In this document: positions 2,777 to 30,426 of the stretch, in pieces
Layout: each line of letters starts with the position of its first letter
How positions within the stretch are numbered: the first letter of the stretch is position 1
NCBI RefSeq assembly: GCF_000725545.1
Contig: NZ_JNZP01000001.1
Location: 124,001-188,000 of the forward strand
Direction: 5' to 3'
DNA: 64,000 nt
DNA from: Streptomyces exfoliatus
GTDB taxonomy: Bacteria > Actinomycetota > Actinomycetes > Streptomycetales > Streptomycetaceae
Notes under the pieces: model-generated
Databases searched by the model: none
What the model was told of the DNA's origin: nothing
The model's input: only the letters and a program-made list of their open reading frames with translations
Translations under genes and position numbers: made by a program

Positions 2777-2790
2777 TAGAACTGGTATCA
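2777..2790. promoter_or_regulatory. Degenerate KstR-type box in the MBL/ALDH intergenic region
   Basis: TAGAACTGGTATCA matches TnnAACnnGTTnnA with one mismatch (GTA for GTT). It is nested in a perfect inverted repeat AGAACTG-GTAT-CAGTTCT (2778-2795). A possible promoter TTGCCC (2763-2768), 17 bp, TATCAG (2786-2791) overlaps it, so bound repressor would occlude the polymerase. The perfect inverted repeat could alternatively be the site of another TetR-family protein. Confidence 0.55.
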
Positions 2791-2806
2791 GTTCTGGGTG
2801 TCAGTA

Positions 2807-2821
2807 CTGATACATCGTCAG
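2807..2821. promoter_or_regulatory. CTGAyr-N3-CGTCAG palindrome (degenerate copy)
   Basis: CTGATACATCGTCAG matches in one half site the palindrome CTGACG-N3-CGTCAG found at 11694, 21648 and 27240. It lies 31 bp before the ALDH start codon and overlaps the perfect 10-bp palindrome TCAGTACTGA (2801-2810). Regulator unknown. Confidence 0.4.
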
Positions 2822-2851
2822 GGAATTCCTTCTCCTCTGGAGGCGGCGGTC

Positions 2852-4312
2852 ATGACCGAGCTTGTGGAGCACGGAAAGCTGTACATCGGCGGGGAGTTGA
2901 CCGACCCGCTCGGCGAGGAGGTCATCGAGGTCGTCTCCCCGCACACCGAGGAGGTCATCGGGCGCGTCCCGCACGCCTCCGCCGCCGACGTCGACCGGGC
3001 CGTGGCCGCCGCCCGCCGGGCCTTCGACGAGGGGCCCTGGCCCCGGATGACGGTGGAGGAGCGGATCGCCGTCGTCACCCGTATCAAGGACGGGGTCGCC
3101 GCGCGGTACGAGGAGATCGCCCGCTCCATCAGCGCCCAGAACGGCTCCCCGTACTCCTGGTCCGTCCTCGCCCAGGCGCTCGGCGCGATGATGGTCTGGG
3201 ACGCGGCGATCACCATCGCCCGCGACTTCGTGTACGAGGAGCGGCGCGGCGGCGTCCTCGGGCCGCTGCTCGTCCGGCGCGAGCCGGTCGGGGTCGTCGC
3301 GGCCGTCGTCCCGTGGAACGTGCCGCAGTTCACCGCCGCCGCCAAGCTCGGGCCCGCGCTGCTCGCCGGCTGCGCGGTCATCCTCAAGCCCTCGCCCGAG
3401 ACGCCCCTCGACTCGTACATCCTCGCCGAGATCGCCACCGAGGCCGGGCTGCCCGAGGGCGTGCTCAGCATCCTGCCCGCCGACCGGGAGGTCAGCGAGT
3501 ACCTCGTCGGCCACCCCGGCGTCGACAAGGTCTCCTTCACCGGCTCGGTCGCGGCCGGCAGGCGCGTCATGGAGGTCGCCTCCCGCAACCTCACCCGCGT
3601 CACCCTCGAACTCGGCGGAAAGTCGGCCGCCGTGATCCTGCCGGATGCGGACCTGGACACCGCCGTCGCCGGGATCGTCCCCGCCGCCTGGATGAACAAC
3701 GGCCAGGCGTGCGTGGCCCAGACCCGTATCCTCGCCCCCCGCTCCCGGTACGAGGAGATCGCCGAGGCCTTCGCGGCGGCGGCCGGCGCGCTCGTCGTCG
3801 GCGACCCGCTCGACCCGGCCACCCAGGTCGGCCCGCTCGTCGCCAGGCGCCAGCGGCAGCGCTCCCTCGACTACATCGGCATCGGCCAGGGGGAGGGCGC
3901 CAAGGTCCTCGCGGGCGGCGGCCGGCCGGCCGGGCTCGATCGCGGCTGGTACGTCGAGCCGACGCTCTTCGGCGGCGTCGACAACTCCATGCGGATCGCC
4001 CGCGAGGAGATCTTCGGCCCGGTCATCTGCCTCCTGCCGTACGCGGACGAGGCCGAGGCCCTCCGGATCGCGAACGACTCCGAGTACGGCCTCAGCGGCA
4101 GCGTCTGGACCGGCGACGTCGAGCACGGCATCGACTTCGCCCGCGCGGTGCGCACCGGCACCTTCAACGTCAACACCTTCAGCCTGGACATGCTCGGGCC
4201 GTTCGGCGGCTACAAGAACTCCGGCCTGGGGCGCGAGTTCGGCCCCGAGGGCTTCGGCGAGTACCTGGAGCACAAGATGATCCACCTGCCGGCCGGCTAC
4301 GGAGACGTGTGA
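2852..4312 (+). CDS. NAD(P)-dependent aldehyde dehydrogenase
   Basis: 486 aa, normal family length. Conserved parts: PWN at 154-156, VTLELGGK with catalytic-base Glu253, and GQACV with nucleophile Cys287. The start was chosen at ATG 2852 because GGAGG lies 10 nt upstream; a longer frame back to 2798 would run through the operator region. Translation is coupled to a [3Fe-4S] ferredoxin (TGATG overlap), an arrangement common beside cytochrome P450 systems, although no P450 is in the window. The KstR-type box upstream suggests oxidation of an aldehyde from sterol side-chain or similar alcohols; the mycobacterial KstR regulon, as I recall it, also contains an aldehyde dehydrogenase. Confidence 0.93.
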   Translation: MTELVEHGKLYIGGELTDPLGEEVIEVVSPHTEEVIGRVPHASAADVDRAVAAARRAFDEGPWPRMTVEERIAVVTRIKDGVAARYEEIARSISAQNGSPYSWSVLAQALGAMMVWDAAITIARDFVYEERRGGVLGPLLVRREPVGVVAAVVPWNVPQFTAAAKLGPALLAGCAVILKPSPETPLDSYILAEIATEAGLPEGVLSILPADREVSEYLVGHPGVDKVSFTGSVAAGRRVMEVASRNLTRVTLELGGKSAAVILPDADLDTAVAGIVPAAWMNNGQACVAQTRILAPRSRYEEIAEAFAAAAGALVVGDPLDPATQVGPLVARRQRQRSLDYIGIGQGEGAKVLAGGGRPAGLDRGWYVEPTLFGGVDNSMRIAREEIFGPVICLLPYADEAEALRIANDSEYGLSGSVWTGDVEHGIDFARAVRTGTFNVNTFSLDMLGPFGGYKNSGLGREFGPEGFGEYLEHKMIHLPAGYGDV

Positions 4313-4548
4313 TGGGCGACCGCTGGCACGTCGAGGTCGACCGGGGCGTCTGCATCGGCTCCGGCATGTGCGTCAACCACGCCCCGGACGGCTTCCGTCT
4401 CGACACGGCCCGCCAGTCCCACCCGCGTGAGCCGGAGACCGACGCGGGCGAACTGCTGCTCGCGGCGGCGGAGGGCTGCCCCGTGGAGGCCATCCAGATC
4501 ACCCTGGCGGCGGGCGGCGAGCCGGTGTTCCCACCGGAGGATGAGTAG
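4312..4548 (+). CDS. [3Fe-4S] ferredoxin
   Basis: 78 aa electron carrier. The cluster ligands fit the single-cluster 3Fe-4S pattern of P450-associated ferredoxins: Cys14 and Cys20 in CIGSGMC, where the middle cysteine of a 4Fe-4S CxxCxxC motif is missing, and Cys56 followed by Pro (GCPVEAI). The ATG overlaps the TGA of the aldehyde dehydrogenase, giving one transcript and coupled translation. Its redox partner is not encoded nearby; a P450 or oxygenase elsewhere in the genome is the likely client. Confidence 0.9.
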   Translation: MGDRWHVEVDRGVCIGSGMCVNHAPDGFRLDTARQSHPREPETDAGELLLAAAEGCPVEAIQITLAAGGEPVFPPEDE

Positions 4549-4638
4549 CCACGGTCCGCCCCTGACCGCCCGTGACCTGCCCGTACGTCGTGTGTGACAC
4601 TCCTCCGGCACAGCAGACGCACAGGGAGTGGGGCAGAC

Positions 4639-5214
4639 ATGCGGGGTCGCGGTACATGGTGGGCGGCGGTCGCCGGAGCGACGGCGGCGGCGCTTCTGGC
4701 GGCGGGCTGCGGGCCCGGTGCGAAGCCCGGGGCCTTCGGCCGCCAGGCGGCGCACGCCGAGATCACCGCTGCCGTCGAGGGGGCGGGGCTGCCGGAGTCC
4801 GACCTCCCGGGGACCGGCGGGCCGACCCCCACGGGCTCGACCCCCGAGCCCACGCCGACCACGGAGCGGGAGCGGGTGGCCGCGCGCATGGCCGCCTGCT
4901 CCACCGGCTGGCAGTACGTCGGCCCTCTCGTCGAAGGGTCGCGCGGCGACTTCGACAAGGCGGTCGCCGCCCTCGTCGGCGAGAAGTGGGTCCAGGACCA
5001 GCGCCAGGTCGAGAAGCTCGACGACAAGGGCAGCACGATGGTCGCGGTCACTCTCAAGAAGCGGGGCTGGACGCTGTTCGGGAGGCACCACAGTGCGCCG
5101 CAGACGCTGAGCCTGGAGATGATCTCCCTCCAGGCGTCGGAGGACTCGTGCATGAAGCAGTTCACCGACAAGGAGCTGGACCTCCTGGAGGGCGAGGGCG
5201 GCGAACAGCCCTGA
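4639..5214 (+). CDS. Lipoprotein, paralogue of the next gene
   Basis: 191 aa. The start is ATG 4639 with GGGAG about 10 nt upstream. A lipoprotein signal peptide ends at the lipobox LLAAGC (Cys24). The mature part has a low-complexity Pro/Thr linker and then a globular region with the pattern DKAVAALVGEKW...TLKKRGWTLFGRHHS. That region aligns with KSYAATITALTKGGW...LKKGGWQLNASDHS in the next protein, so the two are tandem duplicates sharing an uncharacterised domain. Two cysteines (near residues 92 and 174) could form a disulfide. No function known. Confidence 0.85.
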   Translation: MRGRGTWWAAVAGATAAALLAAGCGPGAKPGAFGRQAAHAEITAAVEGAGLPESDLPGTGGPTPTGSTPEPTPTTERERVAARMAACSTGWQYVGPLVEGSRGDFDKAVAALVGEKWVQDQRQVEKLDDKGSTMVAVTLKKRGWTLFGRHHSAPQTLSLEMISLQASEDSCMKQFTDKELDLLEGEGGEQP

Positions 5215-5313
5215 CGCGACGTGCCTTTGCACGCTCCGTTCGTTCCCACGTGCAAAACTGTGCCCCTGTCAGCGGGGGCAAGAGGTCTTCGTGCGGGCCG
5301 TTTTGGGAGTGTT

Positions 5314-5865
5314 GTGCGCAAGGTGATGACGGCGGTCGCGGCCGCCGGTGTGGTGCTGCTGGTCGCGGGCTGTGGCAGTGAGGGCGGTACGGACAAGGGC
5401 GGTTCGTCCTCCGCCGGTTCGTCCTCGGTCGGTTCGGCCGCCACGGGCGGCGCGGGTGGCTCCGGTGGTTCGAGTGACGCGAAGCTGGACGGGGCCGCCG
5501 TCACCAAGGAGCTGACCGACGCGGCCACGGCGGCCGGGTTCACGAAGGACTCCTCGGACGACGAGGTGCCGCCGGAGCTCAAGGACTGCATGGTCAGCTG
5601 GTCGGCCGACGTCGAGAAGGCCGCCGACCCGAAGAAGTCCTACGCGGCCACGATCACGGCCCTGACCAAGGGCGGCTGGCAGGAGGAGCGGAGCACCGAG
5701 CAGAACGGCTCGGTGATCAAGTCCCTGAAGAAGGGCGGCTGGCAGCTCAACGCCAGCGACCACTCCACCGGTCCGGTCAAGCTGGTCATGTTCATCGGCG
5801 CGGACAGCAGCCCGACGTGCGCCGCGCTCATCGCGAAGGACAACGCGAAGCACCAGAAGCCCTGA
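5314..5865 (+). CDS. Lipoprotein, paralogue of the preceding gene
   Basis: 183 aa from GTG 5314, preceded by GGGAG at about 8 nt; longer in-frame starts would spoil the signal peptide. The lipobox is LLVAGC (Cys20), followed by a Gly/Ser-rich linker (about 21-55) and a globular domain holding DCMVSW and CAALIAKDN cysteines, equivalent to those of the upstream paralogue. The two-lysine GGW repeats (LTKGGWQEE and LKKGGWQLN) are the clearest shared signature. Extracellular, membrane-attached; unknown role. Confidence 0.85.
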   Translation: MRKVMTAVAAAGVVLLVAGCGSEGGTDKGGSSSAGSSSVGSAATGGAGGSGGSSDAKLDGAAVTKELTDAATAAGFTKDSSDDEVPPELKDCMVSWSADVEKAADPKKSYAATITALTKGGWQEERSTEQNGSVIKSLKKGGWQLNASDHSTGPVKLVMFIGADSSPTCAALIAKDNAKHQKP

Positions 5866-5914
5866 TTCGGCGCGCCGCCCGTGCCCCCACCGCAGGGGGC
5901 GCGGGTGGCGTACG

Positions 5915-6547
5915 TCAGGCCCGCCTGTCGCCGGTCTCCGGCGCCGTCAGGTCGATCAGCCGGCAGACCGTCTCGATGTCGATCTTCACCTGTGCGATCG
6001 AGGCGCGTCCGGACAGCCAGGTGATCAGCGCCGAGTGCCAGGTGTGCTCGATCACCCGGACCGCCGAGAGCTGCTCCGGTGTGGGGTGCTCCGTCCCCAT
6101 CGCGTCCAGGATGATCGCGGTCGTCAGCCGGGAGACCGTGTCGACCTCGGGGCTCACGCTGCGGTCGGCGAAGGTCAGGGCCCGCACCATCGCGTCGGCG
6201 AGCTGCGGTTCGCGCTGGAGCGCGCGGAAGGTCCGCATCAGGGTCTCCGCGACCCGCTCCGACGGGTCGGCGCCCGCGGGCGGCCGCTTCCGCAGGGTGG
6301 TGTGCAGGTGCTGGAGCTGGTCCTGCATCGTCGCGACCAGCAGGTGGATCTTGGACGGGAAGTAGCGGTACAGCGTCCCCAGGGCCACCCCGGCCGCCTC
6401 GGCGACCTCCCGCATCTGCACGGCGTCGAAGCCGCCCCGCGCCGCGAGCTGGGCGCTGGCGTTCAGGATGCGGCGCCGCCGCGCCTCCTGGCGCTCCGTG
6501 AGGGGCGGCGACGCGGGTCTGTGGTCCGCTCTGTTGTCTGCGGTCAT
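5915..6547 (-). CDS. kstR: KstR-like TetR-family repressor of sterol/lipid catabolism
   Basis: 210 aa. The helix-turn-helix covers about 26-70 and reads RRILNASAQLAARGGF, then VQMREVAEAAGVALGTLYRY and FPSKIHLLV. From memory this is very close to Mycobacterium tuberculosis KstR (Rv3574), including VQM-x-VA, GTLYRYFPSK-x-HLLV and the ligand-domain stretch REPQLADAMVRALTFADRS. KstR represses cholesterol-catabolism genes through TnnAACnnGTTnnA and is released by a CoA-thioester intermediate. A perfect match to that box (6708-6721) lies in this gene's own upstream region, and others stand before catabolic genes in this window. The name rests on remembered sequence similarity and on the boxes. Confidence 0.85.
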   Translation of the reverse strand: MTADNRADHRPASPPLTERQEARRRRILNASAQLAARGGFDAVQMREVAEAAGVALGTLYRYFPSKIHLLVATMQDQLQHLHTTLRKRPPAGADPSERVAETLMRTFRALQREPQLADAMVRALTFADRSVSPEVDTVSRLTTAIILDAMGTEHPTPEQLSAVRVIEHTWHSALITWLSGRASIAQVKIDIETVCRLIDLTAPETGDRRA

Positions 6548-6648: not shown

Positions 6649-6707
6649 ATTCTGTCCTCCTTGAAGGATCAAGAAGATCAGGCCAGAAGATCAAGAACGA
6701 TCAAGTC

Positions 6708-6721
6708 TGTAACTTGTTCTA
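6708..6721. promoter_or_regulatory. kstR box: KstR box between kstR and the glycosyltransferase operon
   Basis: TGTAACTTGTTCTA fits TnnAACnnGTTnnA at every fixed position. It lies between the divergent kstR (start 6547) and glycosyltransferase (start 6776) genes. It sits at the end of an unusually A/T-rich stretch (6660-6725) that contains four GATCA units, as expected of a promoter region. It overlaps a possible -10 TAGATT (6720-6725) for the rightward operon. It implies autoregulation of kstR and possible co-regulation of the glycosyltransferase operon. Confidence 0.8.
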
Positions 6722-6775: not shown

Positions 6776-8104
6776 ATGACCGCTGAGGCCATAGAGGCAG
6801 GCCCCCGCCAGGGCGTCACCGCGACCGGTGACACTCCGCTGCGGATCGCTCTCCTCACGTACAAGGGAAACCCTTTCTGCGGCGGTCAGGGCGTCTACGT
6901 CCGGCACCTCTCCCGCGAGCTGGCCCGCCTCGGTCACCACGTCGAGGTCATCGGCTCGCAGCCGTACCCCACTCTCGACGAGGGCGTCCCGCTCACCGAG
7001 ATCGCCAGCCTCGACCTCTACCGCTCGCCGGACCCGTTCCGGACGCCGAAGCGCGACGAGTACCGGGACTGGATCGACGGTCTCGAGGTCGCCACCATGT
7101 GGACCGGCGGCTTCCCCGAGCCGCTCACCTTCTCCCTGCGGGCCCGGCGCATGCTCGCCGCCCGCCGCGGGGACTTCGACGTCGTCCACGACAACCAGAC
7201 CCTCGGGTACGGGCTCCTCGGCGGCCCGCGCGCCATCGGCGCCCCGCTCGTCACCACGATCCACCACCCCATCACCGTCGACCGGCAGCTCGAACTCGAC
7301 GCCGCCGCCGGCTGGAAGCGCCGTGCCTCCGTCCGTCGCTGGTACGCCTTCACCCGCATGCAGAAGCGGGTCGCCCGCCGGCTGCCGTCCGTGCTCACCG
7401 TCTCCGGCACCTCCCGGCGGGAGATCGTCGACCACCTCGGCGTCCGCGACGACCGCATCCGGGTCGTCCACATCGGCGCCGACACGGACCTGTGGTCGCC
7501 CGACCCGGCCGTCGCCGAGGTCCCCGGCCGGATCGTCACCACCTCCAGCGCCGACGTCCCCCTCAAGGGCCTGATCCACCTGATCGAGGCGCTCGCCAAG
7601 CTCCGCACCGAGAACCCGGCCGCGCACCTCGTCGTCGTCGGCAGGCGGGCCGAGGACGGGCCGGTCGCCGCGGCCATCGAGCGGTACGGGCTCGACGGCG
7701 CCGTCGAGTTCGTCAAGGGCATCAGCGACGCCGAGCTCGTCGACCTGGTCCGCTCCGCCCAGGTCTCCTGCGTGCCCTCGCTGTACGAGGGGTTCTCGCT
7801 GCCCGCCGCCGAGGCGATGGCCACGGGCACCCCCCTCGTCGCCACCACCGGCGGGGCCATCCCCGAGGTCGCGGGGCCCGACGGCGAGACCTGCCTCGCG
7901 GTGCCGCCTGGCGACGCGGGGGCGCTTGCCGCCGCGCTGGGGCGGGTGCTGGGTGACCCGGGCCTTCGGGCCCGGCTGGGGGCGGCCGGGCGCGCCCGGG
8001 TGCTGGAGCGGTTCACCTGGGCGCGGGCCGCGCAGGGCACCGCAGAGCTGTACCGCGAGGCGGTCGCCGCGCAGGGCGCCGGTGTGCGCGGGGGCGCAAG
8101 GTGA
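6776..8104 (+). CDS. Glycosyltransferase family 4 (GT-B)
   Basis: 442 aa. The N-terminal GT-B domain begins near residue 22 with RIALLTYKG and the Gly-rich GGQGVYVRHLSREL, which binds the acceptor/phosphate. The C-terminal nucleotide-sugar domain carries the E-x7-E motif in YEGFSLPAAEAMATG (Glu338 and Glu346). Predicted to be a retaining, cytoplasmic or membrane-peripheral enzyme. It opens a three-gene operon with a methyltransferase and a toroid-fold protein, suggesting the making or modification of one glycoconjugate. The shared upstream KstR box hints at a link with sterol or lipid metabolism. Confidence 0.9.
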   Translation: MTAEAIEAGPRQGVTATGDTPLRIALLTYKGNPFCGGQGVYVRHLSRELARLGHHVEVIGSQPYPTLDEGVPLTEIASLDLYRSPDPFRTPKRDEYRDWIDGLEVATMWTGGFPEPLTFSLRARRMLAARRGDFDVVHDNQTLGYGLLGGPRAIGAPLVTTIHHPITVDRQLELDAAAGWKRRASVRRWYAFTRMQKRVARRLPSVLTVSGTSRREIVDHLGVRDDRIRVVHIGADTDLWSPDPAVAEVPGRIVTTSSADVPLKGLIHLIEALAKLRTENPAAHLVVVGRRAEDGPVAAAIERYGLDGAVEFVKGISDAELVDLVRSAQVSCVPSLYEGFSLPAAEAMATGTPLVATTGGAIPEVAGPDGETCLAVPPGDAGALAAALGRVLGDPGLRARLGAAGRARVLERFTWARAAQGTAELYREAVAAQGAGVRGGAR

Positions 8105-8156
8105 CACCTCGCGCCTGCCCACAACGTTCCGTCAACACCGAAAGCAGGACGACCCC

Positions 8157-8894
8157 GTGCTGACCGTCGACTTCACCCGCTTCCCGCTCGCCCCCGGCGA
8201 CCGTGTGCTCGATCTGGGCTGCGGTGCGGGCCGGCACGCGTTCGAGTGCTACCGGCGCGGCGCCCAGGTCGTGGCCCTCGACCAGAACGGCGAGGAGATC
8301 CGCGAGGTCGCCAAGTGGTTCGCGGCCATGAAGGAGGCCGGGGAGGCCCCCGCGGGCGCCACCGCCACCGCGATGGAGGGCGACGCCCTCAACCTGCCCT
8401 TCCCCGACGAGTCCTTCGACGTCGTCATCATCTCCGAGGTCATGGAGCACATCCCGGACGACAAGGGCGTGCTCGCCGAGATGGTCCGCGTGCTCAAGCC
8501 CGGCGGCCGGATCGCGATCACCGTGCCCCGCTACGGCCCCGAGAAGGTCTGCTGGGCGCTCTCCGACGCGTACCACGAGGTCGAGGGCGGCCACATCCGC
8601 ATCTACAAGGCCGACGAGCTCCTCGGCAAGATCCGGCAGGCCGGCCTCAGGCCGTACGGCACGCACCACGCGCACGCGCTGCACTCGCCGTACTGGTGGC
8701 TGAAGTGCGCCTTCGGCGTGGATAACGACAAGGCGCTGCCCGTCCGCGCCTACCACAAGCTCCTGGTCTGGGACATCATGAAGAAGCCCGCCCTGACCCG
8801 GGTCGCCGAGCAGCTGCTCAACCCGGTCGTCGGCAAGAGCTTCGTGGCGTACGCGACCAAGCCCCACCTTCCCGAGGCGGACGCGGCCAAGTGA
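8157..8894 (+). CDS. Class I SAM-dependent methyltransferase (Methyltransf_11 type)
   Basis: 245 aa from GTG 8157. SAM-binding motif I VLDLGCGAGRH lies at about 17-27, the acidic VVALDQN after it, motif II NLPFPDESFDVVIISEVMEH near 80-100, and motif III LKPGGRIAITVP. It lies 52 nt after the glycosyltransferase, and its stop overlaps the GTG of the next gene (GTGA), so it is part of the same operon. Acceptor unknown; the family often methylates lipids or quinones. A longer in-frame open stretch upstream overlaps the glycosyltransferase and is not used. Confidence 0.88.
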   Translation: MLTVDFTRFPLAPGDRVLDLGCGAGRHAFECYRRGAQVVALDQNGEEIREVAKWFAAMKEAGEAPAGATATAMEGDALNLPFPDESFDVVIISEVMEHIPDDKGVLAEMVRVLKPGGRIAITVPRYGPEKVCWALSDAYHEVEGGHIRIYKADELLGKIRQAGLRPYGTHHAHALHSPYWWLKCAFGVDNDKALPVRAYHKLLVWDIMKKPALTRVAEQLLNPVVGKSFVAYATKPHLPEADAAK

Positions 8895-9982
8895 CGAGCC
8901 CCGAGCGGATCGCCGAGCACCTCGTGCTGCCCGGCGTCCTCACCGCCGAGCAGGCCGCCGAGACGGTCACCGGGATACTCGCCGTCCAGCGCGAGGACGG
9001 CGCCATACCGTGGTTCCGCGGCCATCACCTGGACCCGTGGGACCACACCGAGGCCGCCATGGCCCTGGACGCGGCGGGCGAGCACGCCGCCGCGACCCGC
9101 GCCTACGAGTGGCTCGCCCGGCACCAGAACGGCGACGGCTCCTGGTACGCGGCCTACCGCGACGGCGACCCGGACGACGTCACCGACCGGAGCCGGGAGT
9201 CCAACTTCGTCGCCTACATCGCGGTCGGCGTCTGGCACCACTACCTGTCGACCGGCGACGACGCCTTCCTCGACCGGATGTGGCCCGTCGTCTTCGCCGC
9301 CGTCGAGTTCGTCCTCGGGCTCCAGCAGCCCGGCGGCCAGATCGGCTGGAAGCGCGAGGCCGACGGCACCCCGGTGAACGACGCGCTGCTCACCGGCAGT
9401 TCGTCGATCCACCAGGCGCTCCGCTGCGCCCTCGCCATCGCCGAGACCCGCGAGGAGCCGCAGCCGGACTGGGAGCTGGCGACCGGGGCGCTCGCTCACG
9501 CGATCCGCAGCCACCCGGAGCGTTTCCTCGACAAGTCGCGCTACTCGATGGACTGGTACTACCCGATCCTCGGCGGCGCGGTCACCGGACCGGACGCCCT
9601 GGCCAGGATCGAGGCCGACTGGAGCGCGTTCGTCGTGCCCGGCCTCGGGGTGCGCTGCGTGATCCCCAACCCGTGGGTCACCGGCGGCGAGAGCTGCGAA
9701 CTCGCTCTCGCCCTCTGGGCGATGGGGGAGTCCGACCGCGCCCTCACGATCCTCCAGGACATCCAGCACCTGCGGGCCGGGAACGGCATGTACTGGACGG
9801 GGTACGTCTTCGAGGGCGACGAGGGGGCGGGCAGGGCGTTCTGGCCCGAGGAGCAGACCAGCTGGACCGCGGGCTCCCTGCTGCTCGCGGTGGCGGCCCT
9901 GGGCGGCGAGGAGGCCACGGGCGCCGTCTTCGGCGGCGAACGCCTCCCGACGGGCCTCGAACCGGACTGCTGCGAGGCCTGA
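8891..9982 (+). CDS. Prenyltransferase/terpene-cyclase-fold (alpha/alpha toroid) protein
   Basis: 363 aa, no signal peptide, so cytoplasmic, unlike the exported toroid protein at 186. Repeats include ILAVQREDGAIPWF near 31-45, YEWLARHQNGDGSWYAAY near 72-89 and a VEFVLGLQQPGGQIGW segment near 138-153. The aromatic/Gly-rich QxxDGxW motifs are those of squalene-cyclase-like QW repeats, but no DXDD or DCTAE catalytic signature is evident. The GTG start overlaps the methyltransferase stop. It is probably a binding partner or an atypical hydrolase acting on the product of the glycosyltransferase and methyltransferase. Confidence 0.8.
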   Translation: MTSPERIAEHLVLPGVLTAEQAAETVTGILAVQREDGAIPWFRGHHLDPWDHTEAAMALDAAGEHAAATRAYEWLARHQNGDGSWYAAYRDGDPDDVTDRSRESNFVAYIAVGVWHHYLSTGDDAFLDRMWPVVFAAVEFVLGLQQPGGQIGWKREADGTPVNDALLTGSSSIHQALRCALAIAETREEPQPDWELATGALAHAIRSHPERFLDKSRYSMDWYYPILGGAVTGPDALARIEADWSAFVVPGLGVRCVIPNPWVTGGESCELALALWAMGESDRALTILQDIQHLRAGNGMYWTGYVFEGDEGAGRAFWPEEQTSWTAGSLLLAVAALGGEEATGAVFGGERLPTGLEPDCCEA

Positions 9983-10668: not shown

Positions 10669-11679
10669 TCAGGCGTTGAGCTCCGCGAGCAGACCGAGCG
10701 TGGCGGGGTCCGGTGACGTGACGAGGAGGTCCGTCACCGGGCCCCGCCGCCATGTCTCCAGGCGGGCGGCGATCCGCCGCCGGGGGCCGACGAGTGAGAT
10801 CTCGTCCGCGAAGGCGTCCGGCACCGCGCGTACGGCCTCCTCCCGCCGCCCGGCCGCGAACAGCTCCTGGATGCGCCGGGCCTCCTTCTCGTATCCCATC
10901 CGTCCCATCAGGTCGGCGTGGAAGTTGCGGGCCGCGTGCCCCATGCCGCCGATGTAGAAGCCGAGCATCGCCTTGACCGGCAGCAGCCCGGCCGCCACGT
11001 CCTCGCAGAGCTGGGCGCGGACCATGGGGGCGACGAGGAAGCCCTCGGGGAGTGCCTCCGGCAGGGCGTACACCTCGGCCCAGCGGTCGGGCGTCCAGTA
11101 CAGCGGCAGCCAGCCGTCGGCGAGGGTGAGGGTCTGCGCGATGTTCCTGGGGCCCTCGGCGCCGAGGAGGACGGGGACGTCGGACCGGAGCGGATGGGTG
11201 ATGGGCTTGAGGGCCTTGCCGAGGCCGGTGCCGTCCGCCCCGGTGTACGGGTGGGAGTGGTGGCGCCCGTCGAGCCGGACGGGGCCCTCGCGGCGCAGGA
11301 CCTGGCGGACCACGTCCACGTACTCCCGGGTCGCGGTCAGCGGGGAGCGGGGGAAGGGGCGCCCGTACCATCCCTCGACGACCTGCGGTCCCGACAGGCC
11401 GAGCCCGAGCAGAACCCGTCCGCCGGAGAGGTGGTCGAGCGTGAGGGCGTGCATCGCGGTGGTGGTGGGGGCGCGGGCCGCCATCTGCGCGACGGCGGTG
11501 CCCAGCCTGATGCGGCTGGTGTGGGCGGCGATCCAGGTGAGCGCGGTGAAGGCGTCGGAGCCCCAGGCCTCCGCCGTCCACACGGAGTCGTAGCCGAGCC
11601 GCTCGGCCTCGCGGGCGAGGTCGAGATGGGCGGGGGAGGGGCCGCGGCCCCAGTAGCCGAGGGCGAGTCCGAGTCGCAT
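10669..11679 (-). CDS. LLM-class F420-dependent oxidoreductase, Rv3520c-like
   Basis: 336 aa, TIM-barrel luciferase-like family. The N-terminus MRLGLALGYWG, the segment FTAEAWGSDA-like VWTAEAWGSDAF (about 34-45), ALTLDHLSGGRVLLGLGLSG, QVVEGWYGRPFP and GLGKALKPITHPLR follow M. tuberculosis Rv3520c closely as I remember it. Rv3520c lies in the KstR-controlled cholesterol cluster and uses coenzyme F420. The start is ATG 11679 with AAAGG about 10 nt upstream; ATG 11688 is possible. A perfect CTGACG-N3-CGTCAG palindrome ends 15 bp before the start. Likely reduces or oxidises a sterol-side-chain or related CoA intermediate. Confidence 0.88.
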   Translation of the reverse strand: MRLGLALGYWGRGPSPAHLDLAREAERLGYDSVWTAEAWGSDAFTALTWIAAHTSRIRLGTAVAQMAARAPTTTAMHALTLDHLSGGRVLLGLGLSGPQVVEGWYGRPFPRSPLTATREYVDVVRQVLRREGPVRLDGRHHSHPYTGADGTGLGKALKPITHPLRSDVPVLLGAEGPRNIAQTLTLADGWLPLYWTPDRWAEVYALPEALPEGFLVAPMVRAQLCEDVAAGLLPVKAMLGFYIGGMGHAARNFHADLMGRMGYEKEARRIQELFAAGRREEAVRAVPDAFADEISLVGPRRRIAARLETWRRGPVTDLLVTSPDPATLGLLAELNA

Positions 11680-11693: not shown

Positions 11694-11708
11694 CTGACGA
11701 TCCGTCAG
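11694..11708. promoter_or_regulatory. CTGACG-N3-CGTCAG palindrome before the F420 oxidoreductase
   Basis: CTGACGATCCGTCAG is a perfect 6-bp inverted repeat with a 3-bp spacer. It sits 15 bp before the start codon, where a bound protein would cover the promoter or transcript start. The same palindrome recurs at 21648 and 27240. No KstR box accompanies this copy. Confidence 0.65.
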
Positions 11709-21647: not shown

Positions 21648-21662
21648 CTGACCTTCCGTCAG
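21648..21662. promoter_or_regulatory. CTGACs-N3-CGTCAG palindrome before the acyl-CoA dehydrogenase
   Basis: CTGACCTTCCGTCAG, a 6-bp inverted repeat with one mismatch and a 3-bp spacer. It sits in the -35 region, 2 bp from the adjoining KstR box. Same motif as 11694 and 27240. Confidence 0.6.
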
Positions 21663-21664: not shown

Positions 21665-21678
21665 TGGAACGTGTTCTA
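21665..21678. promoter_or_regulatory. kstR box: KstR box overlapping the acyl-CoA dehydrogenase promoter
   Basis: TGGAACGTGTTCTA matches TnnAACnnGTTnnA exactly. It ends at a -10-like TAGTCT (21677-21682). The ATG follows 7 nt after that hexamer with no Shine-Dalgarno sequence, so the transcript is probably leaderless and the box would block the promoter. Confidence 0.82.
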
Positions 21679-21689: not shown

Positions 21690-23852
21690 ATGGGCATCGC
21701 CATCACGCACGAACAGCGGGAGCTCGCCCGATCCGTCCGCGGCCTGCTCGCCCGCGCCGTCCCCCCGGAGGACGTCCGCAAGGAACTCGACGCCCCCGAG
21801 CCCGCCACCGGCCGGCCCGGGTACTGGGACACCCTCGCCGGACAGGGCCTCCTGGGGCTCCACCTGCCCGAGGAGTACGGGGGAGGCGGCGGCGACCTGG
21901 GAGACCTGGCCGTCGTCGTGGAGGAGGCCGCCGGGGCGCTGCTCCCGGGGCCGTACCTCCCCTCCGTCCTCGCCGCCGAGGTGCTCCACCGAGGCGGGCT
22001 CGGGGAGCTGGCCGGCGACCTCGCCTCCGGCGAGCGGATCGGCGCCGTGGACCTCGCGGACACCGGCTCCCTCACCGCCGTCCGTACCGCCGACGGGTAC
22101 CTCCTCGACGGCACCGCGCCCCCCGTCCTCGGCGGCGCCCAGGCCGACCTGGTGATCCTGCGGGCCGCCACCACCGACGGCGCCGTCTGGCTCGCCGTGG
22201 ACACCGCCGGGCTCCTCGTGCGGCCCCACACCGGCGCCGACCCCACCCGGACCACCGCCGAGGTCACCGCCAGGAACGTCCCCGTCCCCGCCGCTCGCCG
22301 GCTCACCCTCGACCCCGCCCTCGTCCACGACCTCGCCGCCGTCCTCCTCGCCGCCGACGCCTGCGGCACCGCCGCCCGCGCCGTCGAGACCGCCGCCGAA
22401 CACGCCCGTACCCGCGAACAGTTCGGCCGGCCCATCGGACGGTTCCAGGGCGTCAAACACCTCTGCGCCGACATGCTCGTCCGGCTCGAACAGGCCCGCG
22501 CCCTCACCTGGGACGCCGCCCGCGCCACCCGGAGCGAGGCCCGGTCGCTCACCGCCGCGCTCGCCGCCGCCACCGCCCTCGACACCGCGTACACCTGCGC
22601 CAAGGACTGCATCCAGATCCTCGGCGGCACCGGTTTCACCTGGGAACACGACGCCCATCTCCTGCTCCGCCGCGCCGTCGTCGCCCGCCAGCTCCTCGGC
22701 GCCGGCGACCACCACCGCCTCGCCGCCCTCCGGCACGCGGCCGCCGGCGTCCGCCGCGGTCTCCGGCTCGACCTGCCGCCCGAGGCCGACGCCTACCGCG
22801 CCGCCGCCCGCGAGGCCCTCGCCCCCGCCGTCGGACTCGAACCCGCCGCCGCCCGGCGCGCCCTCGCCCCCACGGGGTACGCGGCCCCGCACCTCCCGGA
22901 GCCGTACGGGCTCGGCGCGGGACCCCTCCAGCAGCTCGCCGTCCAGCGTGAGATGGACGAGGCCGGCATCAGGGTCTCCGGGCTCGGCATCGGCGCCTGG
23001 GTCGTGCCCTCGCTCCTCGCCCACGGCACCCCGGCCCAGCAGGCCGAGCACCTCGGCCCGACCCTGCGCGGCGAACGCCTCTGGTGCCAGCTCTTCTCCG
23101 AACCCGGCGCCGGCTCCGACCTCGCCTCCCTCCGCACCCGCGCCGAACGCACCGAGGACGGGCGCTGGCGGATCAACGGCCAGAAGGTGTGGACGAGCGC
23201 CGCCCAGTGGGCCCATTACGGCATCCTGCTCGCCCGTACCGACCCCGCCGCCCCCAAGCACCGGGGGCTCAGCTACTTCCTCGTCGACATGCGGAACACC
23301 CCCGGGGTCGACGTACGGCCGCTCAAGGAGATCACCGGCGAGTCCCTCTTCAACGAGGTCTGGTTCGACGACGCGGTCCTCCCGGCCGACGCCGTCGTCG
23401 GCGAGGTCGGTGACGGCTGGCGGGTCGCCCGCAACACCCTCGGCAACGAACGCGTCCACATGGCCGACCAGGTCGCCTTCGACACCGGCCTCGAAGCCCT
23501 CGTCGAACGCGCCGCGCCGCACGACGGCTCCGTGCGCGTAAGGATCGGGGCGCTCCTCGCCGAGGCGCACGCGCTCGCGTGCATCGGCCTGCGCACCACC
23601 CTGCTCCAGGTGTCCGGGCTCGAACCGGGCGCGGGCGCCAGCGTCCGCAAGCTCGTCCAGACCCTCCACCAGCAGAAGGTCGCCGAACTCACCCTCGAAC
23701 TCCTCGGACCGGAAGGCGCCGTGCGCGAGGGCCCCGGCGAAGGGGCCGTCCACGGGCTGCTCATGTCCCGCTGCCTGACCATCGCGGGCGGCACCACCCA
23801 AGTACAGCTCAATGTCGTCGCCGAGCGGCTGCTCGGCCTGCCGAGAGACTGA
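21690..23852 (+). CDS. Fused two-domain acyl-CoA dehydrogenase, FadE34-like
   Basis: 720 aa, twice the usual ~380. The N-terminal ACAD unit (about 1-345) contains [17 protein letters not shown] and [17 protein letters not shown]. The C-terminal unit (about 365-720) contains [26 protein letters not shown] and the end segment [19 protein letters not shown]. Other acyl-CoA dehydrogenases acting on sterol side chains are alpha2beta2 heteromers; M. tuberculosis FadE34 is the fused form and belongs to the KstR regulon. It introduces a double bond into a steroid or bulky acyl-CoA, using FAD. The ATG at 21690 is supported by the adjacent promoter and KstR box. Followed closely by a thiolase gene (13 nt). 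Confidence 0.92.
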
Positions 23853-23865: not shown

Positions 23866-25059
23866 ATGGGCAAGGCGTACGTCGTCGGCGTCGGAATGAC
23901 GAAGTTCGAGAAGCCGGAGACCCGCGACTGGCAGTACTGGGACATGGCCCGCGAGGCCGGCACCGCCGCCCTCGACGACGCCGGCGTCCCGTACGCGCGC
24001 GTGGAGCAGGCCGCCGTCGGCTACTGCTTCCAGGCCTCCACCGCGGGACAGCGCGCCGTGTACGAACTCGGGCTCTCCGGCATCCCCGTCTACAACCTCA
24101 ACAACAACTGCGCGACCGGCTCCACCGCCCTCATGACCGCCCGCCAGTTCGTCGAGGGCGGCATCGCCGACTGCGTCCTCGCCCTCGGCTTCGAGAAGAT
24201 GAGCCGGGGAGCGCTGGGAGGCGGGTCGGGGGCGGGTGACTTCTCGGCTTCTCCCGTCGCCCGGCACTACGGCATCATGGCCGCCGCCCACGGCTTCGAG
24301 GCGAGTCCGCCCACCGCGCAGATCTTCGGCAACGCCGCCCGCGAGCACATGGAGCGGTACGGGACGACCGAGGTGCAGCTCGCGGCCGTCGGGGCCAAGA
24401 ACCACCAGCACTCGGCGAACAACCCCAACGCCCAGTTCCAGGACGTCTACACCGTCGACGAGATCCTCGCCGCGAAGTCCGTCCACCGGCCGCTCACCCG
24501 GCTCCAGTGCTCGCCCACCTCCGACGGCGCGGCGGCGGCCCTCGTCGTCTCCGAACGCTTCGTCGACGCGCACGGGCTGCGGGGGAGGGCCGTGGAGATC
24601 GCCGGACAGGCGATGACCACCGACACCGAGGAGTCCTTCGCCTCGCGCTCCTGCATCGACGCCGTCGGCCGCCCGATGTCCCGGGCCGCCGCCCGTCAGG
24701 CGTACGAGCGCTCCGGACTCGGCATCGAGGACGTCGACGTCGTCGAACTCCACGACTGCTTCTCCGTCAACGAACTCCTCACCTACGAGGCCCTCGGCAT
24801 GTGCGAGGACGGCGCCTCCGGCAAGCTCGTCGAGTCGGGCGCCACCACGTACGGCGGGCGCTGGGTCGTGAACCCCTCCGGCGGCCTCATCTCCAAGGGC
24901 CACCCGCTGGGCGCGACGGGCCTCGCGCAGACCGCCGAACTGGTCTGGCAGCTCAGGGGCGAGGCGGGCGCGCGGCAGGTGGCGGGGGCGCGGGTCGGAC
25001 TCGCGCACAACATCGGCCTGGGCGGGGCGGCGGTGGTGACGCTGCTGCGCAAGCCGTAG
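23866..25059 (+). CDS. SCP-x-type thiolase / lipid-transfer protein, Ltp1-like
   Basis: 397 aa thiolase-fold enzyme. The nucleophile is Cys82 in [17 protein letters not shown] and [14 protein letters not shown] carry the other active-site His residues. The N-terminus [16 protein letters not shown] and the sequence [21 protein letters not shown] closely follow M. tuberculosis Ltp1 from memory. Expected to cleave a 3-ketoacyl-CoA with CoA in beta-oxidation of a sterol or branched side chain. It is second in the operon with the fused acyl-CoA dehydrogenase; the start ATG follows GAGGGGG. Confidence 0.93.
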
Positions 25060-27239: not shown

Positions 27240-27254
27240 CTGACGTATCGTCAG
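27240..27254. promoter_or_regulatory. CTGACG-N3-CGTCAG palindrome upstream of the MaoC gene
   Basis: CTGACGTATCGTCAG, a perfect 6-bp inverted repeat with 3-bp spacer. It lies 20 bp before the -35 of the strong promoter at 27274, so it could be an activator site for the MaoC operon, or an operator for the minus-strand response regulator. Confidence 0.62.
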
Positions 27255-27302: not shown

Positions 27303-27317
27303 TGGGGACCACCGACC

Positions 27318-27331
27318 TAGAACGCGTTCTA
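27318..27331. promoter_or_regulatory. kstR box: KstR box before the MaoC operon
   Basis: TAGAACGCGTTCTA is a perfect palindrome and an exact fit to TnnAACnnGTTnnA; it extends to CTAG ends at 27317-27332. It lies about 10-23 bp downstream of the predicted transcription start, a roadblock position. Confidence 0.87.
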
Positions 27332-27439: not shown

Positions 27440-28294
27440 ATGCCCATCGACCCCGCAAAGGCCGTCGCCGCCGAACCCCGCAGCGCCGAGATCTCCTGGG
27501 ACCACAAGGACGTCCAGCTCTACCACCTCGGGCTGGGGGCGGGCACCCCCGCGACCGACCCCGACGAGCTCCGCTACACCCTCGAATCCCGGCTCCACGT
27601 CCTGCCCAGCTTCGCCACCGTCGCGGGCGCCGGCATGGGCGTCGTCGGCGGACTCTCCGCGCCCGGCATCGACATCGACCTCGCCGCCGTCCTGCACGGC
27701 GGCCAGTCGGTCACGCTCCACCGCCCGGTACCCGTCGCCGGCCGCGCCGTCTCCACCTCACGCGTCGCCGCCGTGTACGACAAGGGCAAGGCCGCCGTCC
27801 TCGTCCTGCGCACCGAGGCCGCCGACGCCGAAGGGCCCCTCTGGACCAGCGACGCCCAGATCTTCGTCCGCGGCGAGGGCGGCTGGGGCGGCGACCGCGG
27901 TCCCTCCGAGCGCCTCGCCCTCCCCGACCGCGCGCCCGACGTCACCGCCGAGCGACCGATCCGCGAGGAACAGGCCCTGCTCTACCGGCTCTCGGGCGAC
28001 TGGAACCCGCTCCACGCCGACCCCGAGTTCGCGAAACTCGCCGGCTTCGACCGCCCGATCCTGCACGGCCTCTGCTCGTACGGGATGACCCTCAAGGCGG
28101 TGGTGGACACGGTGCTCGGCGGGGACGTCACCCGCGTCCGCTCGTACCGCACCCGCTTCGCCGGGATCGTCTTCCCCGGCGAGACCCTGCGCGTCCGGAT
28201 GTGGGCGGGCGAGGGCGGCGTCCAGGTGACGGTCACCGCGGTGGAGCGCGACGACGCCCCCGTACTCGCCGACACGGTCGTCGAACACTCGTAG
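27440..28294 (+). CDS. MaoC-type (R)-specific enoyl-CoA hydratase 2
   Basis: 284 aa, double hot-dog fold. The hydratase-2 motif YRLSGDWNPLHADPEFA lies at 182-198, with catalytic Asp187 and His192; the N-terminal half is the substrate-binding hot-dog. Size and motif match the hydratase Rv3538 (Hsd4B) of the mycobacterial KstR regulon. It hydrates the enoyl-CoA made by the FadE34-like enzyme. The start ATG 27440 follows GAGGAGC; an earlier in-frame ATG at 27302 would overlap the promoter and KstR box. First gene of an operon with alcohol dehydrogenase and SDR. Confidence 0.92.
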   Translation: MPIDPAKAVAAEPRSAEISWDHKDVQLYHLGLGAGTPATDPDELRYTLESRLHVLPSFATVAGAGMGVVGGLSAPGIDIDLAAVLHGGQSVTLHRPVPVAGRAVSTSRVAAVYDKGKAAVLVLRTEAADAEGPLWTSDAQIFVRGEGGWGGDRGPSERLALPDRAPDVTAERPIREEQALLYRLSGDWNPLHADPEFAKLAGFDRPILHGLCSYGMTLKAVVDTVLGGDVTRVRSYRTRFAGIVFPGETLRVRMWAGEGGVQVTVTAVERDDAPVLADTVVEHS

Positions 28295-28356
28295 ATCCGC
28301 CAGATCCGCCAGATCCGCCAGATCCGCCAGATCCGTTCAGATCCGTTCAGATCCGT
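28294..28356 (+). repeat. GATC-rich tandem repeat between MaoC and alcohol dehydrogenase genes
   Basis: Four copies of the 9-bp GATCCGCCA (28294-28329), then two 10-bp GATCCGTTCA units (28330-28349) and a partial one. The array starts in the last base of the MaoC stop codon and ends just before the RBS GGAGGGAG. It fills the whole intergenic leader. Confidence 0.9.
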
Positions 28357-28374
28357 CCCGGAGGGAGCCGCACC

Positions 28375-29451
28375 ATGCGCGCAGCCGTACTGCACGAGAT
28401 CGGCCAGGACAAACTCGAAGTCGTCGACGACGTCGAGGCGGTGGGCTTCGGCCCCGGCAAGGTGCGGATCCGGGTCCGGGCCACCGGCCTCTGCCACTCC
28501 GACGTCTCCGCGATGAGCGGCGTCCTCCCGCAGCCCGCCCCCTTCATCCCCGGCCACGAGGGCGCCGGCGAGATCCTCGACGTCGGCGACGGCGTCACCG
28601 GACTCGACCAGGGCCAGCGGGTGCTGCTCTGCTGGCTGCCCGCCTGCGGTAGCTGTCCCGCCTGCAAGCGCGGCCAGACACAGCTGTGCCTGGCCGGCTT
28701 CATGAACGCCGGCACGCCCAACTTCAAGCGCCCCGGCGGCGACGTCTTCGGCTTCGCCGGCACCGGCACCTTCACCGAGGAGGTCGTCGTCGACGCCGGC
28801 TGCGCCGTCCCGATCCCCGACGACGTGCCCTTCGAGATCGCCGCCCTCATCGGCTGCGGCGTCACCACCGGCCTCGGCGCCGCCATCAACACCGCCAAGG
28901 TGGAGGCGGGTTCGTCCGTCGCCGTCATCGGCTGCGGCGGCGTCGGCATCTCCGCCATCCAGGGCGCCAAGCTCCAGGGGGCCGCCCAGATCGTCGCCGT
29001 CGACCCCGTCGCGTCGCGCCGCGAGGCCGCGCTGCGCTTCGGCGCCACCGAGGCCGTGGCCCCGGACGCGCTCGCCGACGCCAAGCAGCGGGTCACCGGC
29101 GGAGAGGGCTTCGACTACGTCTTCGAGGTCGTCGGCAAGTCCGCCACGGCCCGCACCGCGTACGAGACGACCCGCCGCGGCGGCACCCTCTGCGTCGTCG
29201 GCGCCGGCGCCCTCGACGACTACCTCCAGCTCAGCATGTTCGAGCTGTTCTTCGACGAGAAGCGGATCCTGCCGTCCATGTACGGCGGCGGGGACGTGCT
29301 CCGGTCGTACGAGCGGGCCATCGCGCTCTGGCGGGCGGGCCGCATCGACCTGGAGTCGCTCATCACCCACCGGGTGCCGCTCGCGGGCATCAACGAGGCC
29401 CTGGAGCAGATGCGCACGGGCGTGGCGCTCCGCACCTGCATCGAGATCTGA
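28375..29451 (+). CDS. Zinc-dependent alcohol dehydrogenase (MDR superfamily)
   Basis: 358 aa. Catalytic zinc ligands are Cys40 (GLCHSD) and His61-Glu62 (PGHEGAGE). The structural zinc cysteines are 91, 94, 97 and 105 (ACGSCPACKRGQTQLC). The Rossmann motif VIGCGGVGISAIQGA lies near 181-195. It oxidises a primary or secondary alcohol with NAD(P). In the operon of MaoC hydratase and SDR it may supply the aldehyde for the aldehyde dehydrogenase elsewhere in the regulon. The start ATG follows GGAGGGAG. Confidence 0.93.
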   Translation: MRAAVLHEIGQDKLEVVDDVEAVGFGPGKVRIRVRATGLCHSDVSAMSGVLPQPAPFIPGHEGAGEILDVGDGVTGLDQGQRVLLCWLPACGSCPACKRGQTQLCLAGFMNAGTPNFKRPGGDVFGFAGTGTFTEEVVVDAGCAVPIPDDVPFEIAALIGCGVTTGLGAAINTAKVEAGSSVAVIGCGGVGISAIQGAKLQGAAQIVAVDPVASRREAALRFGATEAVAPDALADAKQRVTGGEGFDYVFEVVGKSATARTAYETTRRGGTLCVVGAGALDDYLQLSMFELFFDEKRILPSMYGGGDVLRSYERAIALWRAGRIDLESLITHRVPLAGINEALEQMRTGVALRTCIEI

Positions 29452-29466
29452 GAGGACCCCCACGCG

Positions 29467-30426
29467 ATGTCACTCCCCCTGGAAGGGCTGAGCGCGATCG
29501 TCACCGGCGCCGGGCGCGGCCTCGGCCGCGCCGAGGCCCTCGAACTGGCCAGGCTCGGCGCCGCCGTCGTCGTCAACGACTACGGACAGCCCGGCCGCGA
29601 CGGCTCCGGCGCCGCCTCCGCCGCGCCCGCCGAGGAGGTCGCCGCGGAGATCCGCGCGGCGGGCGGCCGGGCGGTCGCGCACCTCGGCGACGTCTCCGAC
29701 TTCGAGACCGCGCGGGCCCTGGTCGACCTGGCCGTCGCCGAGTTCGGGAAGCTGGACGTCCTGGTCAACAACGCGGGCATCCTGCGCGACCGGATGGTCT
29801 TCTCGATGAGCGAGGACGAGTGGGACTCGGTCGTACGGGTCCACCTCAAGGGCCACTTCAACACCACCCACTTCGCCGCCGTGCACTGGCGGGGACGCGC
29901 CAAGGCCGGGGAGACCGGCGTCTACGGCCGGATCGTCAACACCTCCTCCGAGGCCTTCCTCGCGGGCTCGGCCGGTCAGCCCAACTACGCGGCGGCCAAG
30001 GGCGGCATCGTCGGTCTGACCACCTCGACGGCGCTCGCGCTCGCCCGGTACGGGGTCACCGCCAACGCGATCTGCCCCAGGGCCAGGACGCGGATGACGG
30101 AGGACGTGTTCGCGGCCATTCCAGCGATCAAGAGCGGCGGCGAGCCGGGGGAGGGGGAGCTCGACCCGCTGTCCCCGGAGCACGTGGCGCCGCTCGTCGG
30201 CTATCTCGCCTCCCCGGCCGCGTCCGGGGTCAACGGCCAGCTGCTCGTCGTGCACGGCGGGATGGTGGCGGTCGTGGACCGGCCGCGGGTTTCGGCCAAG
30301 TTCGACACGGCCAAGGAGGCGTTCACGTACGAGGAACTGGACGGCCTGCTCACCCCGCACTACGCGTCCCGCCCGGCGGGCGAGACCTTCGCCGCGGCGG
30401 AGGTGCTGGGGCTGAAGAAGGGCTGA
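29467..30426 (+). CDS. Short-chain dehydrogenase, Hsd4A-like
   Basis: 319 aa SDR, longer than the usual 250 because of a C-terminal extension with TPHYASRPAGETFAAAEVL. The NAD-binding TGAGRGLGRAEAL starts at 13, with NNAG, Ser and the catalytic Tyr174 and Lys178 of NYAAAK. Long insertions after the second strand and the extension match peroxisomal MFE-2-type enzymes and Rv3502c (Hsd4A) of the KstR regulon. It would dehydrogenate the 3-hydroxyacyl-CoA from the MaoC hydratase. Its stop is followed by a strong terminator. Confidence 0.92.
   Translation: MSLPLEGLSAIVTGAGRGLGRAEALELARLGAAVVVNDYGQPGRDGSGAASAAPAEEVAAEIRAAGGRAVAHLGDVSDFETARALVDLAVAEFGKLDVLVNNAGILRDRMVFSMSEDEWDSVVRVHLKGHFNTTHFAAVHWRGRAKAGETGVYGRIVNTSSEAFLAGSAGQPNYAAAKGGIVGLTTSTALALARYGVTANAICPRARTRMTEDVFAAIPAIKSGGEPGEGELDPLSPEHVAPLVGYLASPAASGVNGQLLVVHGGMVAVVDRPRVSAKFDTAKEAFTYEELDGLLTPHYASRPAGETFAAAEVLGLKKG

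Follow-up and report, generated by a model that had tools for sequence, protein, structure and literature searches.

Known KstR systems and the Streptomyces locus

KstR of mycobacteria and Rhodococcus is a TetR repressor that acts through a 14-bp palindrome on a regulon whose targets include cyp125/fadA5 (Rv3545c/Rv3546) and fadE34 (Rv3573c) (PMC1995591). Here we describe a 64-kb stretch of the Streptomyces exfoliatus genome (hereafter the window; the whole genome has 7.87 Mb on 128 contigs), which encodes a TetR protein with a similar DNA-binding part and carries the same 14-bp palindrome in front of similar types of target. The locus differs from the described regulon in that kstR and fadE34 are not adjacent, the targets are scattered, and KshA is absent. 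In addition, several promoters have a second palindrome, CTGACGnnnCGTCAG, which at the Rv3520c-type gene stands in place of the KstR box, and the box beside kstR faces a glycosyltransferase operon. We think it likely that a scattered regulon of Streptomyces for sterol side-chain oxidation has its hub in the window and is governed by a KstR-type repressor and probably by a second TetR repressor.

The KstR2 regulon of steroid C/D-ring degradation is likewise under a TetR repressor, which shares steroid catabolism with KstR. The KstR2 palindrome, which we take to be ANCAAGNNCTTGNT, is unlike CTGACGnnnCGTCAG, and the candidate regulator of the second palindrome, a TetR protein with a TetR_C_38 domain, matched 24 PDB sequences, none of which bears the name KstR2. 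SRTF1 of Nocardioides simplex, compared here by its description only, is a further TetR protein of steroid genes in an actinobacterium (PMC7807495). N. simplex also has a cholesterol oxidase gene, choE, outside its steroid cluster and with a putative KstR site (PMC9782250), so that a link between cholesterol oxidase and KstR has precedent; N. simplex has the ring pathway, whereas in Streptomyces two kinds of cholesterol oxidase are split between the two boxes. Within Streptomyces, a CYP125 (CYP125A13 of S. peucetius) hydroxylates cholesterol at C27 in vitro, which supports a sterol as substrate. The available main text of that paper describes no regulon, as the terms KstR, operon, regulat-, and thiolase are absent from it (PMC9728343). 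Mycobacteria are known to have this type of regulator, the box, and the enzymes. New, within the literature that we searched, are a KstR-type regulon as a conserved Streptomyces trait, the adjoining second palindrome, and the candidate regulator of the latter.

KstR-type boxes in the window are conserved

Screening the window for KstR-type boxes, with the same pattern reversed as the control for motif counts and dinucleotide shuffles of the window (100 for the exact box) as the measure of chance, recovered the three exact TnnAACnnGTTnnA boxes that the initial annotation had named (6708, 21665, and 27318). The shuffles average 0.05 boxes and have one at most; none of the 100 reached three. With one mismatch allowed, the window has seven matches where 1.88 are expected, so the one-mismatch copy at 2777, which had been listed with the exact boxes, is present and yet weak by itself. 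A genome-wide scan, proposed as a check in the same annotation, found the exact box at 33 places versus 7 for the reversed pattern; at least six of the 33, part of which were inspected, fall inside called genes. The relevant boxes are TAGAACnnGTTCTA-like and located in promoters, and TnnAACnnGTTnnA operators are found both before the regulon genes and in the region of kstR itself. Relaxed (one-mismatch) counts were dropped as evidence wherever the reversed control matches too.

Conservation was followed in a genus sample of 41 Streptomyces genomes, our own included. Close FadE34 orthologues occur in 15 of them (own included), and the exact KstR box is upstream of the gene in all 15. The second palindrome accompanies this box in 14 of the 15 genomes, at a spacing of 2 bp in 13, and in the promoter alignment the composite TCTGACCTTCCGTCAGA..G.AACGTGTTCTA is conserved, with small variations, amid unconserved DNA. 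The exact box before the MaoC hydratase gene is present in 14/14 relatives (exact reversed pattern 0/14), ten of which also have the second palindrome with at most one mismatch. The Ltp-type gene follows FadE34 in all 14 relatives read, and the genes for the MaoC hydratase, the zinc alcohol dehydrogenase (ADH), and the short-chain dehydrogenase (SDR) were all found in 14/14. A KstR box of their own was seen before Ltp, ADH, or SDR in 0/14 each, which fits two operons, FadE34-Ltp and MaoC-ADH-SDR; the Ltp-type gene is probably cotranscribed with the FadE34-like gene. Following the initial annotation, we presume that the MaoC hydratase is an Hsd4B-like and the SDR an Hsd4A-like protein.

Chance palindromes would account for the relaxed window count and for the genome-wide matches in coding DNA, but hardly for three exact boxes together with these conservation counts. 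We consider this explanation extremely improbable and rejected it on the conservation of the boxes before orthologous genes.

A loose form of the KstR pattern also matches TTGAACnnGTTCAA palindromes, which are probably sites of another regulator. These form pairs 41-44 bp apart in our own genome (C10:146780/146824; C16:109586/109627), whereas two relatives (L141:14153, L166:14152) have a single copy each, 24 bp ahead of a gene; one pair lies ~0.9 kb from a TetR gene (L014/L015).

The KstR-type regulator

Judging from its sequence, the gene at 5915-6547 encodes a KstR-type repressor predicted to recognise TnnAACnnGTTnnA boxes. The product had been described as very like mycobacterial KstR, and the alignment with the KstR chain 5aqc is in keeping with this: the two are 43% identical across the 182 residues aligned and 63% identical in the DNA-binding part (first 54 aligned residues), with GTLYRYFPSK in both. 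The best PDB match is 3bjb (150 bits), presumably a Rhodococcus paralogue, and KstR chains come next (~146 bits). For S. coelicolor, Kendall et al. pointed to SCO2319, to which the window gene may correspond, as a possible KstR orthologue (PMC1995591); theirs is the only paper in the literature searched in which SCO2319 turned up. Namesakes that proved to be unrelated include a "KstR" in Nocardia terpenica and the kosinostatin kst genes.

Relatives of the KstR-type protein are encoded in at least 562 candidate stretches of the named genomes scanned, the best 80 of which (88-98% identical; 79 of the 80 records are titled Streptomyces) served as the sample for the kstR region. These 80 loci (1.61 Mb) contain 104 exact KstR-box matches and no reversed ones, and the orthologous intergenic region between kstR and the glycosyltransferase gene has the exact box in 78 of them.

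The regulon extends beyond the window

The initial annotation had proposed a scattered regulon. This holds, and the set is larger than was proposed, as it extends outside the window to further gene types of sterol side-chain degradation. Divergent genes for CYP125 and FadA5 are located ~7.5 kb before the window (C1:113.9-116.5 kb); the former product scores 501 bits to a CYP125 structure, and the latter reaches 509 bits versus 248 for the next protein. In our own genome, one-mismatch KstR-like boxes and the second palindrome lie between the two genes. Of the 41 genus genomes, 34 have FadA5 with an identity of at least 90%, and 30 of these loci were examined for boxes. The second palindrome is present with at most one mismatch in 28/30 (reversed 0/30) and in 30/30 once a second mismatch is tolerated, provided that the outer halves are intact. 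A near-palindrome, TAGAACGCGTACTA, is unchanged in 24 of the 30 regions, at varying distances.

Based on sequence matches, the regulon appears to take in two acyl-CoA dehydrogenase genes resembling ChsE4/ChsE5 and unlinked to the window. In our own genome, the exact KstR box at C6:84154 precedes a gene of the 4x28_A type (440 bits), and that at C32:52476 precedes one of the 6wy8_A/4x28_D type (174/167 bits); we take 4x28 to be the mycobacterial ChsE4-ChsE5 complex. At C5, the second palindrome, with one mismatch, precedes an acyl-CoA dehydrogenase gene, and behind this gene comes a ChsH2-like one, whose two halves score 158 and 110 bits.

In our own genome, a KstR box with one mismatch also stands before the gene of a cholesterol oxidase (738 bits), an enzyme that, from the look of its N-terminus, is probably secreted. 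Among the loci examined from the 41 genomes, close orthologues come first: in these (73-100% identity, own included), the KstR box is present in 13/14 (3 exact and 10 one-mismatch) and the second palindrome in 2/14. A more distant type (50-54% identity; 15 of 19 matches listed) has the KstR box in 0/15 and the second palindrome in 11/15. The reversed controls match in 0/14 and 1/15 for the KstR box and never for the second palindrome. The two types differ both in the KstR box (Fisher p 2e-7) and in the second palindrome (p 0.003; p values here and below are not corrected for relatedness of genomes), and each kind of cholesterol oxidase seems to be wired to one of the two boxes.

In one cholesterol oxidase gene (L070:11148-12950, residues ~548-598), the last 50 codons match more than 12 other places in the same genome, many of them 67-82% identical, as if the end of the gene enters a dispersed repeat.

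The exact box between kstR and the glycosyltransferase gene in 78/80 loci, set against FadE34 in 15/41 genomes, suggests another reading of the regulator: it might sense acyl-CoAs of branched or isoprenoid lipids in general, sterols being one of several substrates, and have the glycosyltransferase operon as its core duty in Streptomyces. Kendall et al. argue for diverse lipids in mycobacteria (PMC1995591). This reading is possible but doubtful, because the boxed genes include cholesterol oxidase, in all but one of the close orthologues, and because a one-mismatch box is present at cyp125-fadA5, where FadA5 scores twice its next relative.

A second palindrome and its candidate TetR regulator

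The picture of a single regulator given in the initial annotation is incomplete, as it overlooked the second palindrome and probably a further TetR regulator. One copy of CTGACGnnnCGTCAG is separated by 2 bp from the KstR box of FadE34, and others adjoin several more KstR boxes. At two further window loci it was scored by a rule of at most one mismatch, or two with the outer halves intact: the aldehyde dehydrogenase promoter has it in 41 of 56 relatives (reversed 0/56), and the Rv3520c-type gene in 66 of 67 (reversed 0/67). A KstR box was found at the latter gene in none of the 67 relatives, nor in the window. The proposal that the boxed genes are cousins of KstR-regulon members is consistent with boxes conserved before their orthologues; for the Rv3520c-type gene it has to be amended, as this gene has the second box only.

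In the whole genome, CTGANNNNNCGTCAG has 38+40 matches on the two strands, versus 5+1 for the reversed pattern; these amount to 63 places, 15 exact palindromes being counted on both strands. They form clusters at C1:115-151, C3:178-221, and C9:148-168 kb, the genes of which include, by eye from their translations, acyl-CoA dehydrogenase, Ltp, SDR, luciferase-like, and amidohydrolase genes. Among the other places inspected, a number are intragenic or stand in front of unrelated genes.

A TetR gene at C1:118 kb (L052) was considered as encoding a candidate regulator. The TetR_C_38 gene is located inside the C3 cluster. Its product, whose predicted structure has a mean pLDDT of 90, most likely binds CTGACGnnnCGTCAG, judging from genome comparisons. 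The best 120 relatives listed are named no more specifically than TetR/AcrR family regulator, and we found no relevant paper on the second palindrome and no mention of TetR_C_38/PF19352 in the literature searched. In a class sample of 148 genomes, 30 have a strong TetR_C_38 match (E below 1e-30), and all 11 Streptomyces among them carry 3-20 exact palindromes. At least three exact palindromes are present in 16 of the 19 non-Streptomyces carriers versus 7 of the 118 non-carriers (Fisher p 7e-13). A phylum sample shows the same trend, with 4/8 non-Streptomyces carriers versus 6/137 non-carriers (p 7e-4), the latter having at most five palindromes. Furthermore, at 9 of 23 distant loci, which leave out L189, at a contig end, the TetR_C_38 gene has the box (at most one mismatch) in the 150 bp before it; the reversed pattern is there at 0/23, and 0.05 per 170 bp is expected from the surroundings. 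The nine proteins are 43-56% identical to the Streptomyces one. At four Streptomyces loci, where two mismatches were allowed, a two-mismatch form lies over the start codon of the TetR_C_38 gene.

Association among genomes is not proof, given shared ancestry, and CTGACGnnnCGTCAG could instead be bound by another regulator that co-occurs with the TetR_C_38 protein. Three non-Streptomyces carriers with at most one palindrome and the seven non-carriers with 3-4 would agree with this. We think it unlikely, in view of the box upstream of the TetR_C_38 gene at the distant loci and of the position of our own TetR_C_38 gene amid the C3 boxes.

In distant genomes (L186, L190), a hydrolase gene, isochorismatase-like by eye, stands directly before the TetR_C_38 gene, and in L186 an exact second palindrome precedes the pair. 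An isochorismatase-family gene of our own genome (L199:4234-4869, Pfam) has a one-mismatch second palindrome upstream. Five genomes of family f58 (G197, G217, G232, G246, and G261) each have 109-218 exact CTGACGnnnCGTCAG copies, with 0-1 reversed, and all five encode a TetR_C_38 protein at 42-47% identity; from these counts, f58 appears to be an actinomycete family with an unusually large CTGACGnnnCGTCAG regulon.

Ring degradation

The suggestion that the set serves the side chain only fits the absence of KshA. In our own genome, where the search for ring genes was aimed at KshA alone and left aside kstD and the hsa genes, the KshA_C domain (PF19298) was absent. Across the 41 genus genomes, nine have a KshA_C match above the family cut-off. 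Two of these (G012 and G023) score ~300 bits, and the seven others (33-97 bits) are probably other Rieske oxygenases. In the 80 and 100 kb read around KshA in these two genomes, with ring genes recognised by eye, KstR boxes and second palindromes lie inside called genes, except for one intergenic second palindrome in L299, ~34 kb from KshA; no KstR box was found there in a promoter. Bergstrand et al. found 55 of 57 Streptomyces genomes to be without steroid pathways (PMC4810484), and most of the Streptomyces studied here appear unable to break sterol rings.

With full-score KshA in 2/41 genomes only, the boxes might also be non-functional relics of a lost complete sterol pathway. This is quite improbable, because the bases of the boxes are kept while the neighbouring DNA drifts, and because FadA5 is retained so widely and at such high identity within the genus.

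Weighing the regulon and its proposed mechanism

Several results weigh against a KstR-type regulon for sterol side chains. The 5915-6547 protein scores 201.1 bits with the NCBIfam equivalog model for KstR, under the cut-off of 280, and 3bjb marginally outscores KstR as its closest solved relative; we did not adopt the strict equivalog label, as the curated cut-off was missed, and here the likeness claimed by the initial annotation has to be qualified. The most widespread Streptomyces KstR box precedes a glycosyltransferase/methyltransferase operon without a known sterol role, FadE34 is limited to 15 of the 41 genus genomes, and just 17/56 relatives have a KstR box at the aldehyde dehydrogenase promoter (reversed 0/56). 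At cyp125-fadA5, the KstR box is a one-mismatch form in 30/30 regions and exact in 0/30, and under the same rule the reversed pattern matches in 16/30. On the side of the second repressor, three non-Streptomyces TetR_C_38 carriers have 0-1 palindromes (one in G235; none in G089 and G206), and the TetR_C_38 genes of Streptomyces have an upstream box with at most one mismatch at 0/7 loci scanned, which are other than the four with the two-mismatch form.

Because the reversed pattern matches so often at cyp125-fadA5, the KstR box there rests on the recurrence of TAGAACGCGTACTA and on the precedent of Rv3545c/Rv3546, a listed mycobacterial KstR site (PMC1995591), and we assign this gene pair to the KstR-type regulon less certainly. 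Our assessment of the regulon as a whole is unchanged by this, as it rests on the exact boxes.

From the boxes, their positions and conservation, the gene families behind them, and the association of palindrome and TetR_C_38 protein, we infer the following mechanism. The KstR-type protein would bind TAGAACnnGTTCTA-like promoter boxes and repress the genes behind them. Once a sterol enters the pathway, an acid or acyl-CoA intermediate of side-chain oxidation may release the protein, by analogy with mycobacterial KstR; release of KstR by sterol side-chain acids or CoA esters has been reported (PMC9782250). The TetR_C_38 repressor would bind the CTGACGnnnCGTCAG copies that adjoin several KstR boxes and those that precede other catabolic genes, and two-site promoters might open fully only after both repressors let go (AND-logic). 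Cholesterol oxidase would yield the 3-ketone, CYP125 would hydroxylate the end of the side chain, and acyl-CoA dehydrogenases, the MaoC hydratase, dehydrogenases, FadA5, and Ltp/ChsH2-type enzymes would shorten the chain. Lacking KshA, the cells would presumably leave the sterol nucleus intact.

A 2012 paper dated KstR and its sites to the Mycobacterium-Rhodococcus ancestor (PMC3388012). Conserved Streptomyces KstR boxes conflict with this dating, unless the Streptomyces protein is a paralogue that reads the same box; that they are conserved in front of genes of the same types speaks for an earlier origin, with side-chain oxidation as the ancestral duty. We see even chances that the promoters bear a two-key operator, read by the KstR-type protein and a TetR_C_38 protein with a wider regulon, and that the KstR/cyp125-fadA5/fadE34 system predates that ancestor, having begun as a side-chain module to which the rings were added later. 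The second palindrome and its probable TetR_C_38 regulator point to a large regulon that is undescribed within the literature searched. Streptomyces that shorten the side chain and spare the rings could matter for steroid manufacture and for the supply of acetyl- and propionyl-CoA to antibiotic synthesis.

Coordinates and neighbouring features

Table 1. Boxes and genes of the putative regulon. Positions are those of the window, except for the last row.
Feature	Position	Strand	Basis
One-mismatch KstR-like box before aldehyde dehydrogenase	2777..2790	+	pattern match
Second palindrome before aldehyde dehydrogenase	2807..2821	+	2 mismatches to CTGACGnnnCGTCAG, outer halves intact
Aldehyde dehydrogenase and ferredoxin genes	2852..4548	+	Pfam Aldedh; Fer4_13/Fer4_15
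KstR-type TetR repressor gene	5915..6547	-	Pfam TetR_N + TetR_C_20
Exact KstR-type box between kstR and glycosyltransferase	6708..6721	+	TnnAACnnGTTnnA match
Putative operon: GT4 glycosyltransferase, SAM methyltransferase, uncharacterised 363-aa protein	6776..9982	+	Pfam
Rv3520c-subfamily F420-dependent oxidoreductase gene	10669..11679	-	NCBIfam TIGR03559 431.7 bits, cut-off 335
Exact second palindrome just upstream of F420 gene	11694..11708		pattern match
Second palindrome, left half of FadE34 composite operator	21648..21662	+	pattern match
Exact KstR-type box, right half of FadE34 composite operator	21665..21678	+	TnnAACnnGTTnnA match
FadE34-like two-domain acyl-CoA dehydrogenase gene	21690..23852	+	Pfam acyl-CoA dehydrogenase domains
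Ltp-type thiolase/lipid-transfer protein gene	23866..25059	+	NCBIfam PRK08256 620 bits, cut-off 436
Exact second palindrome before MaoC	27240..27254	+	pattern match
Exact KstR-type box before MaoC	27318..27331	+	TnnAACnnGTTnnA match
MaoC/MFE-2 hydratase (Hsd4B-like, presumed), zinc alcohol dehydrogenase, short-chain dehydrogenase (Hsd4A-like, presumed) genes	27440..30426	+	Pfam; NCBIfam PRK07792 for last
TetR_C_38 regulator gene, inside C3 box cluster	C3:218100-218744		PF19352 243.5 bits, TetR_N 26.1 bits

The starts of the FadE34-like and MaoC genes (21690 and 27440) are those of the gene caller. The 363-aa protein, encoded by the third gene of the glycosyltransferase operon (8891-9982), had no Pfam match and weak NCBIfam matches only, e.g., to oligosaccharide amylase. 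Relaxed counts are unsafe in the region between kstR and the glycosyltransferase gene, where reversed control matches occur in 56-60 of the 80 loci. Directly before the KstR box, the window has repeated GATCAAG/AGAAGATCAAGAA units (6660-6707), and these AT-rich repeats may explain the reversed-control matches in the relatives.

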